A DNA stretch of 20,114 nucleotides from the IMG/VR virus record IMGVR_UViG_3300044765_000108, positions 1-20,114 of that record. One strand, written 5' to 3'. Position numbers and translations under genes: made by a program. Below the pieces are notes generated by a model, which was not told where the DNA came from, did no database searches, and saw only the letters and a program-made list of their open reading frames with translations. The first letter of the stretch is position 1; every line of letters starts with the position of its first letter. Below, piece after piece: positions 8,474 through 16,433 of the stretch. The DNA comes from a virus.

Positions 8474-8970
8474 GCTTCCTCCTGCTTCGGATTGCGCCTG
8501 TGATACTTGCTCTGAGATTCATCGCAATTCGTCGGCTTGATGCCGTGCTGGTCAGTGCAGCGTGAGCATCTCCATGTAGGGTCATGCAAGGTAGGCGTGC
8601 CGTCGTAGTCGTAACTCCAGTCCTGGGACCACGAAACGCCAGGGCCATTCTCGCAAACGAAGCAACCACACTTGTCGCAGCGAGCTTGCCAAACCGCCCG
8701 CCATCCACGCGGAGGCTTACTGTCGTCAGTGGCTACATCGTTCATCCAGTCCTCGAAGGACTGACATTCCACAAGCTCGAACAGCTGCTTCGGATACCTT
8801 CCGCTGCTCATCCCGTTCTGCCTCACCTCGCCGCGATCGCACAGGATGCTCAGCGAATTGCGGATGACGTTCTCGTCGCTGCCGACGGTATCGGCGAGTT
8901 CGCGTACGGTCATGGCGCGACGCTTCAGGCAGCGGGTGAGGATGGATTGAAGCGGGTGACTGCGGTTCAT
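8470..8970 (-). CDS. Winged-helix plus zinc-ribbon hypothetical protein, 166 aa
   Basis: Residues ~1-65 look like a winged helix: LTRCLKRRAMTVRELADTVG, then VIRNSLSILCDRGEVRQNG, then a GRYPKQLFEL wing. The C-terminal half has two Cys pairs, CDKCGCFVC and CSRC, around a Trp/Asp-rich loop (SWSQDWSYDYDGT), which could hold a zinc ion. This suggests a nucleic-acid-binding regulator. No named family is recognised. It is coupled to both neighbours by ATGA overlaps. Confidence 0.75.
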   Translation of the reverse strand: MNRSHPLQSILTRCLKRRAMTVRELADTVGSDENVIRNSLSILCDRGEVRQNGMSSGRYPKQLFELVECQSFEDWMNDVATDDSKPPRGWRAVWQARCDKCGCFVCENGPGVSWSQDWSYDYDGTPTLHDPTWRCSRCTDQHGIKPTNCDESQSKYHRRNPKQEEA

Positions 8971-9630: not shown

Positions 9631-10420
9631 TTTTCATCGCCTCCAACGCCTGAACTGCCATGCCGGTTTTGCTGATCTGCATCGCTCGAGCTGGTGGTGG
9701 TCCGGTGCTGACCGTCTTCGCACCCTCGGCATGCCGGCTCCGTGCTGTCGCGATGGCATAGGCGAACGGGTTGGCCTTGCCTGGAGCTTCGGCGTAGGTG
9801 TCGCGGATCGCTTCCGGTGTCACACCCTCAGCGAGCGCTGCGAGGAGGTCCGGATGGCTTGCGTTGACCCTTGCGCAACCGGCCTGCCGGAGGAGCAAGC
9901 ACGCGCGCCCTGCGTCGGTCCCGGCCTGGGTAGGGATCTCTGTGCGTGCCTCAAGCTGTTGCTCTTGATGGTGTATGGCGTGTGGCGTGTGGAGAGCTTC
10001 ACCAGACTGGGTAGCCCGCTGGGTTTCTTCTGGGTTACCCCCCAGATAACCCACTGGGTTACCGGATGGGTTACCCGGTGGGTTACCGGCTGGGTTCGGT
10101 TTGCGGCCACCTTTCGAGCCGTTTTGCTGGGCGATCTGGATGCGCCGCTGAGCCTTGGCGATCTCCGCATCTACCCGATTTTTATGGCGAAATCCGTCGT
10201 CAGCGATCGGGAAGAACTCCTCGGCAACCTTGCGTGTTGCCGCTTTGTCGGCCGCTGAAATCGCGCTCGTAATCACGTACAGCTTTTTGAGGTCTGCGGG
10301 CAGCGGCTTTTCTTCGCTGTAATACGCGATTAAAAGCTTCAAATATGCCCCGTGTTCCGTGAGGTTTAGCGACGTCGTATCACGCAGGTAGTCGCCCGGA
10401 TAGAACTCGAAGTAGTTCAT
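9545..10420 (-). CDS. DUF1376 (YdaU-like) replication-associated protein
   Basis: The N-terminal ~90 residues are a typical DUF1376 domain: MNYFEFYPGDYLRDTTSLNL, then HGAYLKLLIAYYSEEKPLP, then a later FRHKNRVDAEI. DUF1376 proteins are common in phage replication blocks and combine a winged-helix-like N-terminus with variable C-termini. Residues ~105-140 are a tetrapeptide repeat of the type GNPxGNPx, encoded by a 12-bp DNA array. The C-terminal half contains a helical domain (HPDLLAALAEGVTPEAIRDT, then GKANPFAYAIATAR) seen in replication initiator-like proteins. It is 291 aa and coupled by ATGA to the PP-loop gene before it. It probably acts at the phage origin, in the place of lambda O. Confidence 0.82.
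   Translation of the reverse strand: MNYFEFYPGDYLRDTTSLNLTEHGAYLKLLIAYYSEEKPLPADLKKLYVITSAISAADKAATRKVAEEFFPIADDGFRHKNRVDAEIAKAQRRIQIAQQNGSKGGRKPNPAGNPPGNPSGNPVGYLGGNPEETQRATQSGEALHTPHAIHHQEQQLEARTEIPTQAGTDAGRACLLLRQAGCARVNASHPDLLAALAEGVTPEAIRDTYAEAPGKANPFAYAIATARSRHAEGAKTVSTGPPPARAMQISKTGMAVQALEAMKSENRLGDGRNLDGPAEAGLPRLGSTAGG
10008..10099. repeat. 12-bp period TGGGTTACC array inside the DUF1376 gene; candidate replication origin
   Basis: On the plus strand exact TGGGTTACC copies start at 10031, 10055, 10067 and 10079. Degenerate copies start at 10008 (TGGGTAGCC), 10020 (TGGGTTTCT) and 10091 (TGGGTTCGG), mostly 12 bases apart. An inverted GATAACCCA copy lies at 10045-10053. The array encodes the GNPx repeat of the protein. 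Iterons inside the initiator gene are the arrangement of the lambda origin in gene O, which makes this a candidate origin. It may equally be only a coding repeat. Confidence 0.6.
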
Positions 10421-12445: not shown

Positions 12446-12636
12446 GCGGCGAGCCTCCGGCGCGCGCGTGCCGCGGTAGCCGTGCGCTCATATCCATCCT
12501 TCACTGCTCGGCCGACGCTCCAGCCTTTCATCCATGCTTCGCGCAGCTGGCCTATCTGGTGCGGGCACGCGCGTTGTTGCTTCCCTGCCTTGGCGGCTAC
12601 ATTTCCTTCGGACCAGGCGAGCAGGAGATATTTCAT
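12442..12636 (-). CDS. 64-aa basic protein
   Basis: The product starts MKYLLLAWSEGNVAAKAGKQ and continues with the helical segment QIGQLREAWMKGWSVGRAVK and an Arg/Ala-rich tail. Both ends overlap neighbours by ATGA. It is basic and may bind nucleic acid. No family is recognised. Confidence 0.7.
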   Translation of the reverse strand: MKYLLLAWSEGNVAAKAGKQQRACPHQIGQLREAWMKGWSVGRAVKDGYERTATAARARRRLAA

Positions 12637-13070
12637 GCGACCTTCCCGTGCAGCGCTTCGATGAGGACACGGTTCTTCACGCGCTCTGCTTCGAGCGCTT
12701 CGTTCGCAACACGCAGCGCGCGTTCGGTTTCGGTTTCGAGCTTGCGCAGGCTCGCCGGGTCGTAGCCGCGGGAATGCGCGAGCCAGATCAGCGGCGCTTC
12801 GTTGCCGCAGAGATCCATCAGCGCTGGCAGCTTGTCGACGGGGAAATGCGCTTCGCCGCGGTGAATGCGCGTCCAGTGGCTGGCATCAATGCCCAGCGCG
12901 CTATAGACCTGCTTGTCACCCTCGAAACCACCGAGCGAGATGCACAGCTTGATCGCGGCCAGGAGCGTCGGTTGCGCGATCACAAGCGATGCATCAAGGG
13001 CCTGCGGAGCCCGCGCCAACTTGAGCGGTATCTGAGGTGCGTCCACCGAATGCAAAAGATTGGACTTCAT
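12633..13070 (-). CDS. DNA-binding protein in the cII position
   Basis: The 145-aa product contains a probable helix-turn-helix: GDKQVYSALGIDASHWTRIHRGEAHFP, where ASHWTRIHRG looks like the recognition helix. It is followed by VDKLPALMDLCGNEAPLIWL and a C-terminal coiled-coil-like helix with ETETERALRVANEALEAERV. This layout is frequent in temperate phages of Burkholderia and Xanthomonas relatives, next to cro. By position it corresponds to lambda CII, but whether it activates lysogeny is unknown. It overlaps the next gene by ATGA. Confidence 0.75.
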   Translation of the reverse strand: MKSNLLHSVDAPQIPLKLARAPQALDASLVIAQPTLLAAIKLCISLGGFEGDKQVYSALGIDASHWTRIHRGEAHFPVDKLPALMDLCGNEAPLIWLAHSRGYDPASLRKLETETERALRVANEALEAERVKNRVLIEALHGKVA

Positions 13071-13184
13071 TGGACGGTCCTCCGTGACGTAAAAAAATAT
13101 CCATGGCGATCAAGCGAAAAGGCGGATTCCTCCCGGTGGTAGGCTGGCGTTGCGACACGACCAACCACCACACAGGAGGAATCC
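13071..13184. promoter_or_regulatory. Divergent intergenic region with a hairpin that can cover a ribosome binding site
   Basis: Plus-strand GGATTCCTCC (13124-13133) and GGAGGAATCC (13175-13184) are perfect 10-bp arms. A second pair, GGTGGT (13135-13140) and ACCACC (13164-13169), continues the stem. The right arm is exactly the Shine-Dalgarno sequence of the gene starting at 13185, so the folded RNA would block its translation. TTGGAC occurs twice (13060-13065, 13070-13075) with an A/T-rich block at 13090-13100 as weak candidate promoter elements for rightward transcription. Confidence 0.7.
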
Positions 13185-13460
13185 ATGGAACAAGAGGAGC
13201 TGGCGAGCGTCCTATCGAAGGCGCTTGCATGGATCAGCGCGACGCAGCCGCTCATCGAGGCGCTGGTCATGAGTCACCCCGATCCGACACGACTGCGCGA
13301 CGCATGGCATGCGCAATTGCCGCAGCAAGTCGAAGACGAAATGGGTACACCGCCGTTCGAGGTGAACGAGTACTGCGAGCGCTATATCGAATCCCTTTCA
13401 GGGATTTCGAATCTGATCGACGCCGCGGCGCGTCGCCATACCGGCGGGGGTTCCAAGTAG
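13185..13460 (+). CDS. 91-aa hypothetical protein, antisense inside the early operon
   Basis: ATG 13185 has an almost ideal ribosome binding site (AGGAGGAATCC). The 91-aa acidic product starts MEQEELASVLSKALAWISAT, has the central segments LVMSHPDPTRLRDAWHAQL and PPFEVNEYCERYIESLSG, and ends RRHTGGGSK. It is helical with no membrane span. It is encoded against the direction of the cro-like and cII-position genes and lies between them. It may act in lysogeny or as a moron. No function is recognised. Its ribosome binding site is part of a long hairpin. Confidence 0.8.
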   Translation: MEQEELASVLSKALAWISATQPLIEALVMSHPDPTRLRDAWHAQLPQQVEDEMGTPPFEVNEYCERYIESLSGISNLIDAAARRHTGGGSK

Positions 13461-13486
13461 CGAGTGCGGACAGGCGGCCGGTCATC

Positions 13487-13708
13487 TCACGCAGCCTCCC
13501 TTTTTGCCGAGGCCAGCAAGTCGACGATCGTCACTTCGCCGAGAGTTACGCCGACGATCGCTTCCCAGTGCTCGGGGTCGATGCGTCGAGCGCCACTGAT
13601 CCAGTGACGAACGGCCGGCGCCTGAACACCGCAGGCCTTGGCGATCTTGCCAATAGCTTTGCCGCGTTCCCCAAGGGGATGTTTAGAAACCCATTCGCGT
13701 ATGTTCAT
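13487..13708 (-). CDS. Cro-like transcription regulator
   Basis: ATG 13708 gives a 73-aa protein, MNIREWVSKHPLGERGKAIG, with a Cro-type helix-turn-helix: AIGKIAKACGVQAPAVRHWISG, then RRIDPEHWEAIVGV. The size and divergent position to the repressor gene fit Cro. There is no strong ribosome binding site. A promoter candidate on the minus strand (-35 TTGTAT 13744-13739, 17 bases, -10 TATCCT 13721-13716) would start transcription almost at the ATG, so the mRNA could be leaderless. Operator sites at 13718-13779 overlap this promoter. Confidence 0.82.
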   Translation of the reverse strand: MNIREWVSKHPLGERGKAIGKIAKACGVQAPAVRHWISGARRIDPEHWEAIVGVTLGEVTIVDLLASAKREAA

Positions 13709-13715
13709 GGGCGCG

Positions 13716-13779
13716 AGGATACATGATGTATCCTCAAGATACAATACGTGTCGTTGCAGCATGTGATACAGCACGTACC
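13716..13779. promoter_or_regulatory. Operator cluster (oR-like) with three GATACA-N3-TGTATC sites and the divergent promoters
   Basis: Site 1 is GATACATGATGTATC (13718-13732), perfect and symmetric. Site 2 is GATACAATACGTGTC (13738-13752) and site 3 is GATACAGCACGTACC (13765-13779); both keep the left half-site and are degenerate on the right. Site 1 covers the -10 of the leftward (cro-side) promoter candidate. TACAAT (13740-13745) is a possible -10 for rightward repressor transcription. The arrangement matches the tripartite operator between cI and cro in lambdoid phages. Confidence 0.75.
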
Positions 13780-13788
13780 ATCGAGCCC

Positions 13789-14349
13789 ATGGGATGGGTA
13801 CAGCGCGCCGTAGGGCGCATGCGCGACCTTGGGTTGCGACAAGAAGACCTAAAAGCGACGCTCGGAGTAAAAACCCGCGGCGCAGTTGGCCATTACTTTC
13901 GTGAACGCCGGCAGCTTTCCGCGCAACAGGCTGCGGCACTGGCGGCAAAGCTTGGCATGTCGATCGATGAGTTATTCAGCGACGACCCCGGCGCGGAAGC
14001 CTCTATCGGGAGCGCAGGAATAGTAGATTCAATCTCACAGTCCAATGCGACGAGACTCGACCCTGAAATGATCGCCGAGAGTTACGCAGCACTGAGCGAG
14101 ATATATCTCGAGGAGCGCGGGGTCCCGTTTGACCTCACGCAGGAGCCGGAACGCTTTGTGCTTGTGTATGAGGCTAGGTCACGCATGACGAAGAATCCGA
14201 GCGCTTCCGACGAGCGCAGATTCGGTGCCAGGGTGGCCGAAATCGTGCGACTGACGGGGGCGGATTTACATGGATCGCGAGATGGTGTGCCGGTTGAAGG
14301 CGATGATAAGGGCCCAATGGCCCGAGGAGTTCAACGTAAAAAGGGCTGA
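13789..14349 (+). CDS. Prophage repressor (CI position) with XRE-type HTH but no peptidase domain
   Basis: The frame is open from 13723, but the operators lie in that part, so ATG 13789 (MGWVQRAVGRMRDLGL) is the likely start; the ribosome binding site is weak (GAGCCC). The 186-aa product has an XRE helix-turn-helix at residues ~15-60: LRQEDLKATLGVKTRGAVGH, YFRERRQLSAQQAAALAAKL, then DELFSDD. The rest (DPEMIAESYAALSEIYLEER, then a FVLVYEARSRM segment) shows no S24 signal: no Ala/Cys-Gly cleavage site and no Ser-Lys dyad region. It is divergent from the cro-like gene and shares the operators, which supports a repressor role. Confidence 0.82.
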   Translation: MGWVQRAVGRMRDLGLRQEDLKATLGVKTRGAVGHYFRERRQLSAQQAAALAAKLGMSIDELFSDDPGAEASIGSAGIVDSISQSNATRLDPEMIAESYAALSEIYLEERGVPFDLTQEPERFVLVYEARSRMTKNPSASDERRFGARVAEIVRLTGADLHGSRDGVPVEGDDKGPMARGVQRKKG

Positions 14350-14470
14350 TCTTCGTGTCGTGCAGCCTGTCGAAATTCCGCCGCAGCCCGTCAAGCTTTG
14401 GGCGGCGACCCGGCCACCGCCTGGCTACAAGCGCCCTGCCCGCGTGCTGCCGGACAAGAAGACTGGATAG
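14270..14470 (+). CDS. 66-aa hypothetical protein overlapping the repressor gene end
   Basis: ATG 14270 is preceded by GGGGG about nine bases upstream. The frame overlaps the last 80 bases of the repressor gene and ends just before the terminator. The product reads MDREMVCRLKAMIRAQWPEE, then a Pro/Val-rich segment (VVQPVEIPPQPVKLWAATR) and a basic tail. It looks like a normal small phage protein co-transcribed with the repressor, but the overlap makes the exact start uncertain. Confidence 0.6.
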   Translation: MDREMVCRLKAMIRAQWPEEFNVKRADLRVVQPVEIPPQPVKLWAATRPPPGYKRPARVLPDKKTG

Positions 14471-14475
14471 GCCAT

Positions 14476-14502
14476 AAAAAACCCCGCCTGAGCGGGGTTT
14501 TT
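14476..14502. terminator. Bidirectional Rho-independent terminator
   Basis: CCCCGC (14482-14487) and GCGGGG (14492-14497) form a stem around CTGA. A-run 14476-14481 and T-run 14498-14502 extend it and give a U-tract in both directions. It separates the rightward repressor unit from the leftward toxin-antitoxin unit, which converge on it. Confidence 0.92.
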
Positions 14503-14524
14503 CGATCTAAATCATGGCGACACA

Positions 14525-14872
14525 TCAAGCCGTGCGGCGCATGAAATCGCCAACAGGAACTGTTGGTTCTCCAGCTTCGCTCTCTCTTTTTTCTGCGTCT
14601 TCCAGCAGCTTTTGATAGATCTGCTTGCTTTCCGAGATGGCGAAGCGGTGCAGCAGATCGCGCACCATGGGCTGATAGCCAATCCCATGGTGTCGAGCGA
14701 TCACCTTCAGTGCAGTGATCAGCTCTCTTTCTAGTCGGATGGAGATTGGCTGCAAACCTGCAGCCCTTTCGATCGCCGCTGTCTCATCGGGGCTAGCTTC
14801 CTTCGCATGGGCTGCATCCATCCCGAGCACGCCCTTTTCCCAGTTTTCGATCGACCCCTCGATCTTACTCAT
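14525..14872 (-). CDS. Antitoxin, BrnA/CopG-like ribbon-helix-helix
   Basis: ATG 14872 is chosen: GAGGAG, inside the last toxin codons, lies about nine bases upstream, and the start is two bases after the toxin stop. The 115-aa product has an RHH-type core, QPISIRLERELITALKVIAR followed by HHGIGYQPMVRDLLHRF, matching the BrnA-type pattern 'isiRl...eli..lk..A...gigYq.lir..l'. A disordered acidic C-terminal tail probably wraps the toxin. It is the second gene of the pair, an order known for BrnT/BrnA. Confidence 0.78.
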   Translation of the reverse strand: MSKIEGSIENWEKGVLGMDAAHAKEASPDETAAIERAAGLQPISIRLERELITALKVIARHHGIGYQPMVRDLLHRFAISESKQIYQKLLEDAEKRESEAGEPTVPVGDFMRRTA

Positions 14873-14874
14873 TT

Positions 14875-15192
14875 TCAGCACTCCTCGTTGGGCCAGCTCG
14901 CTGGCAACCCGGCGAGCCGTATATACAAATTGAGCGGACGGTCATCGTCCGGCTCAAAAGCCGTTTTGATCTCAATGTCGTCATCGACTCGAATAAAGCA
15001 AATCTTGAGCAATCGGCCGTGATTCGTCGGGGCAACGAACCAGAAAGTTGGCGGATCCGTACGGTTTGCCTCGCGGGGATCTTCATAGTATTTCGCCTCG
15101 CCATTGGCAAAACACTCGAACACTTCTTTCATAGAGACGCCATGCCGCTCCAAAAGCTTGGCGCCTGTTTTTCCGGACATCTTGAACGCCAT
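14875..15192 (-). CDS. Toxin of a BrnT-like toxin-antitoxin pair
   Basis: ATG 15192 gives 105 aa, beginning MAFKMSGKTGAKLLERHGVS. Its sequence contains MKEVFECFANGEAKYYEDPR, NRTDPPTFWFVAPTNHGRLL, then KICFIRVDDDIEIKTAFEPD. Proteins with this pattern are often annotated as ADP-ribosyl-(dinitrogen reductase) hydrolase-like or BrnT-like toxins (RelE-type fold). The frame remains open far upstream through the repeat region, but the ATG after the promoter palindrome is the logical start. A weak AGGGA ribosome binding site precedes it. The substrate cannot be read from sequence; RNA cleavage would be expected for BrnT. Confidence 0.75.
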   Translation of the reverse strand: MAFKMSGKTGAKLLERHGVSMKEVFECFANGEAKYYEDPREANRTDPPTFWFVAPTNHGRLLKICFIRVDDDIEIKTAFEPDDDRPLNLYIRLAGLPASWPNEEC

Positions 15193-15226
15193 GGTATCTG
15201 CGTCCCTGCAATTTGGTGTGTGTGGA

Positions 15227-15255
15227 TTGTATATACAAGTGATCGGCTTCAGCAA
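15227..15255 (-). promoter_or_regulatory. Toxin-antitoxin promoter with TTGTATATACAA palindrome
   Basis: The 12-bp perfect palindrome TTGTATATACAA (15227-15238) overlaps a minus-strand -10 candidate, TATACA (15233-15228). This is placed 16 bases from a -35 candidate, TTGCTG (15255-15250). An RHH antitoxin binding such a site would give autoregulation. The inverted repeat GTGACCCAAGTCAC (15257-15270) lies just upstream. Confidence 0.65.
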
Positions 15256-15486
15256 TGTGACCCAAGTCACCTTTTCATATTTGACAGGAGCGGATTCGGT
15301 TGCGGCGCGCCGCCCTTTTCGACCTACCAGGACGCCTGACGGCGGCCCAACCAGCTGCACCGCGTATTTATGAACCAAAAATAAATGTGTAGCTACCCGT
15401 TGTATCCTTGAGATACATTTTGTATTGCACGGAAAGGATACATTATGTATCGTTCTCCCAACGCCACCCCGGCAGGGAGAACAAGC
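15239..15486. other. Non-coding control region between the TA pair and the rightward early operon
   Basis: About 250 bases without a supported gene. It holds the GTGAC-N4-GTCAC repeat (15257-15270), a GC-rich stretch with GCGGCGCGCCGC, and an A/T-rich block (15365-15390). The operator and promoter cluster follows, then the ribosome binding site of the hexapeptide-repeat gene. No convincing RNA gene is seen. Confidence 0.6.
15392..15451 (+). promoter_or_regulatory. Operator cluster (oL-like) and rightward early promoter
   Basis: Three sites of the same type as at 13718-13779: GCTACCCGTTGTATC (15392-15406, half-degenerate), GATACATTTTGTATT (15412-15426) and GATACATTATGTATC (15437-15451, perfect). 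A promoter candidate, -35 TTGTAT (15400-15405), 17 bases, -10 TATTGC (15423-15428), has the same element spacing as the cro-side promoter, and the two regions align over about 29 bases on opposite strands. Confidence 0.75.
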
Positions 15487-16227
15487 ATGGCCCGCAAGAA
15501 ATTCGAACTCGTCGCAGACCAGTCCATTGAAGTCTTCGGCATCAAGCTGTTCCGCATCCGCGCTCTGATTTCGTTCGGCTCGGTGAGCAAGGGTGAGCTG
15601 GGCGGCTATGTCGCTAAAGAGGAAAACCTCAGCCAGGAAGGCAACGCGTGGGTCTACGACAACGCGCGGGTCTACGACAACGCGCGGGTCTACCACAACG
15701 CGCGGGTCTACGACAACGCGCGGGTCTACGACAACGCGCGGGTCTCCGGCAACGCGCGGGTCTACGACAACGCGCGGGTCTACGACAACGCGCGGGTCTC
15801 CGGCAACGCGCGGGTCTACGACAACGCGCGGGTCTACGACAACGCGTGGGTCTACGGCAACGCGTGGGTCTCCGGCAACGCGTGGGTCTACGACAACGCG
15901 CGGGTCTACGACAACGCGTGGGTCTACGGCAACGCGTGGGTCTCCGGCGACGCGCGGGTCTCCGGCGACGCGTCCATTTTTTGGGCATCCCGCGTCGGCA
16001 GTGAAAACGGCACCCTCACGGTCTTCCGCGCAAAGGTCGGTCTCTATGTCACCCGCGGCTGCTTTGCTGGCACGGATGACGAATTCCTCAAGCGCGTGGA
16101 TGAAGTGCATGGCGCCGAATCGAAGGTTGGTCGCGAATACCACCTTCTGATTGAGGTTGCGCGTTCGCGCATCGATGTCACTACGCCACTGCCGGAACAG
16201 GCGGAATCCGATAGGGAGGCCGCATGA
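15487..16227 (+). CDS. Hexapeptide-repeat (predicted left-handed beta-helix) protein, first gene of the rightward operon
   Basis: ATG 15487 with GGGAG nine bases upstream is preferred to the frame start at 15445, which lies within the operator. The 246-aa product has three parts. The N-terminal domain, residues ~1-52, includes FGIKLFRIRALISFGSVSKG and ELGGYVAKEENLS. Then come 18 tandem hexapeptides of the type NARVYD/NAWVYG/NARVSG. The C-terminal domain includes NGTLTVFRAKVGLYVTRGCF, then AGTDDEFLKRVDEVHG and a helix. Regular small-Ala-Val-small hexads predict a left-handed beta-helix of about six turns. Related phage proteins are often labelled 'transferase hexapeptide' or 'polymer-forming', without proven function. 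Control by the repressor-type operators makes it an immediate-early product. Confidence 0.85.
   Translation: MARKKFELVADQSIEVFGIKLFRIRALISFGSVSKGELGGYVAKEENLSQEGNAWVYDNARVYDNARVYHNARVYDNARVYDNARVSGNARVYDNARVYDNARVSGNARVYDNARVYDNAWVYGNAWVSGNAWVYDNARVYDNAWVYGNAWVSGDARVSGDASIFWASRVGSENGTLTVFRAKVGLYVTRGCFAGTDDEFLKRVDEVHGAESKVGREYHLLIEVARSRIDVTTPLPEQAESDREAA
15643..15966 (+). repeat. Tandem array of 18 units of 18 bp
   Basis: The unit AACGCGCGGGTCTACGAC and close variants (CGTGGG for CGCGGG, TCCGGC or TACGGC for TACGAC) repeats 18 times without interruption, encoding the hexapeptides. No unit contains a stop in any reading frame, so all six frames are open here; only the plus frame starting at 15487 makes sense. 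Confidence 0.95.
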
Positions 16228-16433
16228 ACACTCCGATATGGCAGTCCGACACGATCGATGTCGATGAAAAGACCGAGGCTGATGTCCAGGCTAGCGAACT
16301 GAGCGTTGCTCTCCGCTTCCACGACGGCCGCTGGATCTTCGAGATGCACCTCGACGACGAACGCGCTCTTGCGCTCGCCGCGCAGATAAACGAGGGCGTC
16401 ATTCAGCACCGTTCGATGAGGGCCCGGCCATGA
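16224..16433 (+). CDS. 69-aa acidic protein
   Basis: It starts by an ATGA overlap with the repeat protein gene. The product, MNTPIWQSDTIDVDEKTEAD at the start and LSVALRFHDGRWIFEMHLDD in the middle, then a helix, looks like a small alpha/beta protein. It is not recognised. It overlaps the next gene by ATGA. Confidence 0.75.
   Translation: MNTPIWQSDTIDVDEKTEADVQASELSVALRFHDGRWIFEMHLDDERALALAAQINEGVIQHRSMRARP

Follow-up and report, generated by a model that had tools for sequence, protein, structure and literature searches.

Putative operator clusters of the repressor region

In phage lambda, operator OR2 is centred about 42 bp from the cI start, the rexAB genes lie between cI and oL, and oR and oL are separated by about 2.4 kb. 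Two further groups of phages are close enough in plan to be compared here. In phage N15, the repressor CB recognises three operators in the interval between cB and cro, together with two OL sites at another position, and the cI and cro mRNAs of phage PY54 were found to be leaderless by rapid amplification of cDNA ends (RACE) (PMC4488713). The Gifsy repressors are not cleaved on induction, and two heteroimmune Gifsy phages with different operators answer the same antirepressors (PMC3121763). Here, a virus fragment of 20,114 bases (IMG/VR record IMGVR_UViG_3300044765_000108; this whole stretch is referred to as the window, and motif counts apply within it) is described, in which a candidate repressor gene is flanked by two clusters of the palindrome GATACA-N3-TGTATC. 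These clusters are read as the putative right and left operators (oR and oL) in the CI/Cro switch of a temperate phage, with lambda-like anatomy and a probability of roughly 0.9. The first-pass annotation of the sequence had proposed such a pair, and the core of the proposal is supported by position, statistics and comparison with relatives. Overall it is well supported by the positions of the sites, by their enrichment and by a matching arrangement in some of the related loci.

Six matches to GATACA-N3-TGTATC with at most two mismatches were identified in the window, all inside the two clusters. Cluster A (13718-13779) contains sites starting at 13718 (no mismatches), 13738 (two) and 13765 (two), with start-to-start spacings of 20 and 27, while cluster B (15392-15451), about 1.6 kb away, contains sites starting at 15392 (two), 15412 (one) and 15437 (none), with spacings of 20 and 25. 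The first-pass annotation had listed these six sites with these spacings and had called beforehand for a search with the consensus; within the 20,114-base record this search returned the two clusters only. Its description of the best sites as near-identical also stands, since the perfect sites at 13718 and 15437 differ at one central base. Dinucleotide shuffling (400 shuffles) gave a mean of 0.26 and a maximum of 3 matches at this level versus the six observed, for a motif that was derived from the six sites themselves. A motif-blind scan seeded with perfect palindromes placed the GATACA motif at the top with a score of 6.0 (best of 400 shuffles, 2.5); when seeded with one-mismatch palindromes, an 18-bp coding repeat at approximately 15646-15952 ranked above it.

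Cluster A fills the gap between a gene for a 73-amino acid (aa) Cro-like protein (13487-13708, minus strand) and that of a 186-aa CI-like repressor (13789-14349, plus strand), both open reading frames (ORFs) being present as previously annotated, and a gene for a 145-aa CII-like regulator (12633-13070, minus strand) is located on the Cro side. The Cro-like protein resembles YdaS and HTH_3, both below the Pfam cut-off, and is related to PHROG 35 (transcriptional repressor). The CII-like protein is weakly related to PHROG 101 (CII-like activator, E 2e-4), and its one relative among named phages is annotated as 'putative repressor protein cI'. CI possesses an N-terminal helix-turn-helix (HTH) domain of the HTH_3 type and a C-terminal helical domain; a Pfam scan of the 186-aa protein showed no match to Peptidase_S24 at E 0.01. 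Its AlphaFold model is of low confidence overall (mean predicted local distance difference test score, pLDDT, 68; predicted TM-score, pTM, 0.40), with a well-predicted C-terminal helical core at residues 91-150 (block means 85-90). A search of the PDB gave no match at E 0.001, the best matches being the HTH repressors DdrO (E 0.037) and P22 c2 (E 0.056). The ORF list also permits a 208-aa repressor starting at 13723, within cluster A; the 186-aa start has a counterpart in the relative L172 (see below), both lying 9 nt from O3.

The locus resembles that of lambda in having three sites between divergent cI and cro genes and three more at the predicted opposite early promoter, in predicted pR hexamers inside O2 and O1 with O3 over the predicted pRM, in a distance of 44 bp between the centre of O2 and the cI start downstream of it, and in a putative CII-like gene after cro and other genes between cI and oL, the position of rexAB. 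It differs in the sequence of its 15-bp site and the spacings of 20/27 and 20/25, in a CI without an S24 match, in a cro that is probably leaderless, in a candidate toxin-antitoxin pair pointing against cI, and in clusters separated by about 1.6 kb instead of 2.4 kb. With N15 it shares three oR sites plus a separate OL, and with PY54 the leaderless cI and cro transcripts, which are probable here; these phages differ in an OL that lies across the promoter predicted for the replication gene repA and in a PY54 Cro that binds a single site (PMC4488713). The Gifsy repressors, described as non-cleaved (PMC3121763), can be likened to the window CI with its lack of an S24 match. The switch design is already known; this group of phages, its site and the architecture of its repressor are new examples of it.

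Predicted promoters and proposed mechanism

Within oR, O1 (13718-13732, GATACATGATGTATC; a weaker equivalent occurs in L172) overlaps the predicted -10 of pR and O2 (13738-13752) its predicted -35, the centre of O2 lying 44 bp from the cI AUG, and O3 (13765-13779) overlaps the predicted -10 of pRM, with 9 nt between its end and the cI start codon. The predicted pR (13716-13744, minus strand) consists of a -35 TTGTAT (13744-13739) and a -10 TATCCT (13721-13716) separated by 17 nt, with a further 7 nt from the -10 to the cro ATG, which would make the cro transcript leaderless; the same hexamers occur in L172. The predicted pRM (13754-13781, plus strand), assigned by eye, reads TTGCAG, 16 nt, TACCAT and 7 nt to the cI ATG. 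At oL, the outer site (15392-15406) has two mismatches, the middle site (15412-15426) has one and its right end, GTATT, enters the predicted -35 of pL, and the perfect gene-proximal site (15437-15451) overlaps the predicted -10. This pL (15425-15453, plus strand; by eye) reads TTGCAC, 17 nt, TATCGT. Counterparts in L172, again compared by eye, are TTGCTC-16-TAACAT-7 nt-ATG for pRM and TTGCGC-17-TATCGT for pL. Early promoter candidates on the two sides had been aligned in the first-pass annotation: of these, the pR candidate TTGTAT-17-TATCCT is kept in L172, but the oL hexamers aligned with it (taken as TTGTAT-17-TATTGC) are not. Instead, TTGC[A/G]C-17-TATCGT is kept by the window and L172 at the oL pair 25 bp apart, as judged by eye.

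In the proposed mechanism, cluster A would act as oR between divergent cro and cI, and cluster B as oL before the opposite operon. In a lysogen, CI dimers would occupy O1 and O2 in oR as well as the two gene-proximal sites in oL, and the bound CI would cover the -35 and -10 of both pR, reading toward cro and the CII-like gene, and pL, reading toward a solenoid gene and, further on, a Sak4-like gene. O2, whose centre is 44 bp upstream of where cI begins, would place CI so as to stimulate its own promoter, pRM; as O3 lies over the pRM -10, Cro or excess CI bound there would shut cI off. We infer CI and Cro binding, promoter use, order of occupancy and autoactivation from sequence, and looping between the clusters, about 1.6 kb apart, is possible. 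Because no S24 domain was found in CI, induction by self-cleavage is unlikely, and induction probably follows a route other than RecA-stimulated self-cleavage. An antirepressor as the inducer, as in the Gifsy prophages, is a reasonable guess; antirepressors are known there (PMC3121763), whereas none was identified in the window.

The two-cluster plan in related loci

A search with the CII-like protein retrieved thirty-six viral loci. Two of these (L125 and L147) had too little upstream DNA and were excluded, leaving thirty-four testable loci with at least 800 b upstream of cII. In 17/34, the region upstream of cII has a single palindrome repeated in two clusters that are separated by 400 b or more and score above 2.8 (the highest of 420 shuffles; the window scores 5.3), with the near-duplicates L158 and L159 counted as two of the seventeen. 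At least twelve distinct site sequences occur among these loci, and a few are alike, L156 and L158 being an example. L138, with a score of 2.3, is below the threshold and lies outside the seventeen. Among eight loci from bacterial genomes, three possess the two-cluster plan, namely those of Dyella mobilis (3+3 sites), a Burkholderiales metagenome-assembled genome (MAG; 2+3) and a Polaromonas MAG (2+2). Two further cII relatives were examined, L177 having two clusters and L178 not. When compared with named phages, the CII-like protein matched one of 50,697 phage records.

Seventeen relatives were mapped, namely sixteen of the seventeen two-cluster loci and L138. In each of them a rightward ORF starts next to the oR-like cluster, with a leftward ORF across from it, and sixteen have a leftward ORF after oL, L152 ending at the contig edge; the ORFs at the cro and cI positions of these relatives were assigned by position alone. 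A Pfam HTH or S24 match was obtained for eight of the ten repressors of relatives that were scanned. Promoters were surveyed in twenty-seven loci, comprising the window, L138 and mapped two-cluster loci, across which the clusters are separated by about 0.7 to 2.5 kb. In 22/27, the distance from the end of O1 to the cro start that was chosen is 4-14 nt. The span in which cro starts were sought began 6 nt ahead of the end of O1 and reached 60 nt beyond it, a choice that biases this figure to short distances. A sigma70-like match of at least 8/12 ending just before cro was identified in fifteen of the twenty-seven loci, against 1.4% of 1080 control ATGs. A promoter-like match in this position implies a leaderless or nearly leaderless cro mRNA, perhaps across the whole group, as in PY54. 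The cro and cI transcripts of the window are probably leaderless. The distance from the O2 centre to the cI AUG is 41-44 bp in nine of twenty-one loci by position (44 bp in the window, L172, L133, L134, L173 and L176; 43 bp in L144 and L175; 41 bp in L126; other loci differ), taking the fitting start codon where several are possible, starts being ambiguous in several loci.

With these predicted sites, the twin-operator plan of lambda would be extended to a group of phages that has hardly any named members, and the plan is also seen in loci from Dyella mobilis and from a Burkholderiales and a Polaromonas MAG. They offer a naturally varied collection of switches with one layout, at least twelve site sequences, and repressors with and without S24. 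As a data set, it bears on which features of lambda (spacing, O2 position, two clusters, looping) persist as specificity and induction change, and this wider set of related switches is a more interesting product than the single window.

A relative sharing the repressor HTH and Cro

When 233 genomes from the same family as the Dyella genome were searched with CI, five gave a match. One of these, L172/L179, is a prophage-like locus in the family of Dyella mobilis and the sole locus found that shares both the HTH of the window CI and its Cro. Its CI matches the HTH part alone (51% over 86 residues, with 12/12 identical in LGVKTRGAVGHY) and carries at its C-terminal end a Peptidase_S24 domain, for which the window CI has no match; the two Cro proteins share 51% identity over 51 residues. 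The site class of the window is present at both its oR (spacing 27/20, as in the window) and its oL (25/23, versus 25/20 in the window), and the pR hexamers are also shared. Two close pairs of sites at up to three mismatches were found in none of 1000 shuffles of L172 and in none of fifty-four other related loci, which partly overlap (L168-L171 repeat L160, L161, L163 and L166); L156, one of the fifty-four, has one close pair. The CopG- and BrnT-like proteins of the window gave no tblastn match in L172 at E 0.001.

By contrast, L173, L174, L176 and L127 align to the C-terminal part of the window CI and not to its HTH, and this C-terminal part of the window CI is shared with L180, L181 and L183 too. 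L173, L174 and L176 each have two clusters of other palindromes, the CI copy of L173 containing an in-frame stop inside the matched part. L175, whose CI match in the family search was not repeated by tblastn at E 0.001, also has two clusters of another palindrome. This pattern is as expected if the HTH determines the sequence of the site, with a single relative as the positive case. We would suggest, tentatively and at odds well short of even, that in this phage group the HTH, Cro and all operator sites form an exchangeable specificity cassette, and that the C-terminal part of CI is exchanged separately, being either S24 or a small helical domain, as yet without a name, which would serve for cooperativity, looping and the response to the inducer. 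If true, heteroimmune phages sharing the helical domain could be co-induced by one antirepressor.

Contrary evidence and alternative explanations

A number of results weigh against reading the clusters as oR and oL. When three mismatches are allowed, one extra match appears at 8732, and shuffles give a mean of 3.27 with five of one hundred attaining seven matches, so that the count alone is weak at this level. Among real downstream regions used as a control, 2/37 score above 2.8 and one more equals it. No two-cluster match was obtained for 16/34 of the viral cII-linked loci, besides the sub-threshold L138, or for five of the eight bacterial loci; some loci without a match have little upstream DNA, and others may have sites invisible to the scan, or none. 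L127, which shares the C-terminal part of the window CI and has 5 kb of upstream sequence, gave no two-cluster match either. The pR hexamers of the window are weak (7/12), and a generic promoter scan of the window found none. Alignment searches of viral contigs with the HTH and with Cro retrieved no further relatives. Against 398 genomes of the order, the HTH alignment, run without a positive control, had no matches, and the Cro alignment matched five, none of these loci having the GATACA motif in a cluster but other motifs instead. For L172, at least four matches at up to three mismatches occur in three of 1000 shuffles, and the third site of each cluster needs four mismatches, a level at which three matches are found elsewhere in the locus too; L172 is also the one relative in which the link between site and HTH is seen.

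The alternative that survives best accepts both clusters as operators but has them act separately, with CI dimers repressing pR and pL locally and no loop formed, on the argument that CI lacks a lambda-type C-terminal domain. The missing S24 match is consistent with this, as are the predicted C-terminal domain, a small helical bundle in a low-confidence model (mean pLDDT 68) without a PDB match at E 0.001, and the variation in cluster separation (0.7 to 2.5 kb) across the twenty-seven loci. That the two-cluster plan is kept with repressors both with and without an S24 match may tell against separate action, although repression of two operons alone would explain this too; we judge separate action to have a little under an even chance. 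Binding of the sites by some other regulator, for instance a complex of the CopG-like and BrnT-like proteins encoded between the clusters, is very improbable: in spite of the location of these genes, the toxin-like gene starts 200 bp downstream of cluster B and cluster A lies beyond cI, a different perfect palindrome precedes the toxin-like gene, and L172 shares the site class, HTH and Cro with no CopG- or BrnT-like match by tblastn at E 0.001. Chance, or a local repeat without a regulatory role, can be practically dismissed, for although the count at up to three mismatches is only mildly unusual (attained by 5/100 shuffles), none of 400 shuffles comes near the clustered score, part of the relatives show the plan with different site sequences, and L172 has the site class together with the HTH.

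Genes between and beyond the clusters

A 66-aa ORF (14270-14470, plus strand) overlaps the end of cI and has partial homologues in L127, L180 and L182. It is followed by a hairpin with flanking A and T runs (14477-14502; -17.1 kcal/mol, z -3.7), which is probably a two-way terminator between cI and the antitoxin-like gene; a terminator scan of the window does not list it. The candidate toxin-antitoxin pair consists of a 115-aa CopG-like antitoxin (14525-14872, minus strand; 24.7 bits against a Pfam cut-off of 28) and a 105-aa BrnT-like toxin (14875-15192, minus strand; 22.4 bits against 34.5), so for membership of the BrnT/BrnA type both the BrnT and the CopG_antitoxin matches are under the curated cut-offs. 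A perfect palindrome, TTGTATATACAA (15227-15238), lies upstream of the BrnT-like gene and is possibly the operator of the pair; nothing else in the window matches it with one mismatch or fewer. A reading of the GATACA sites as antitoxin operators was dropped because this separate palindrome precedes the toxin-like gene.

The first gene of the opposite operon encodes a 246-aa YdcK-type beta-solenoid protein (15487-16227, plus strand), in which 18-bp tandem repeat units are present at approximately 15646-15970. A Sak4-like annealing protein is encoded further along on the same strand. In the cI-oL interval of the relatives L126, L137, L144 and L150, matches to tRNA_anti-like, zinc-ribbon, DUF4236 and Rap1a-like proteins were observed; four of ten scanned had any match for ORFs in this interval, those to zinc-ribbon and Rap1a being below the cut-off. 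These genes are possibly cargo expressed in the lysogen.

Occurrence of the site and of relatives elsewhere

Single-sequence searches with CI and Cro identified no relatives in viral contigs or phage records, nor did that with CI in genome contigs, and megablast of the whole window against the phage collection gave no match. With positions 12600-16300 as the query, distant blastn gave matches to three records that covered 5-9% of it and began at 15535 or later; these matches lie in the solenoid gene and have no bearing on the switch. No literature on this phage group was found among open-licence papers by title and start of abstract.

The site had been described in the first-pass annotation as unfamiliar from known phages, yet its consensus also occurs in other phages. 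A site of this form is used by Xre, the repressor of PBSX. Scanning viral contigs for the exact site returned at least 119 stretches, and among the 119 matches listed twenty-one have a second site (at up to two mismatches) within 60 bases. Consensus clusters beside HTH genes were found in five of seven loci mapped, all from low-GC phages (L009, L027, L031, L046 and L117), and their recognition helix differs by eye from that of the window; the shared 15-bp consensus is apparently convergent. The other two loci mapped (L074 and L078) are not of this kind, and L044, L049, L086, L087 and L107 have a clustered consensus as judged by site only. One 15-base variant of the site is present in PMC4243335.

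The LexA box CTGT-N8-ACAG has no exact match in the window, and three matches with one mismatch were found, fewer than expected by chance. Four clustered TAACCC-N3-GGGTTA-like sites were also observed at 10012-10085, inside a minus-strand ORF with GNP repeats.

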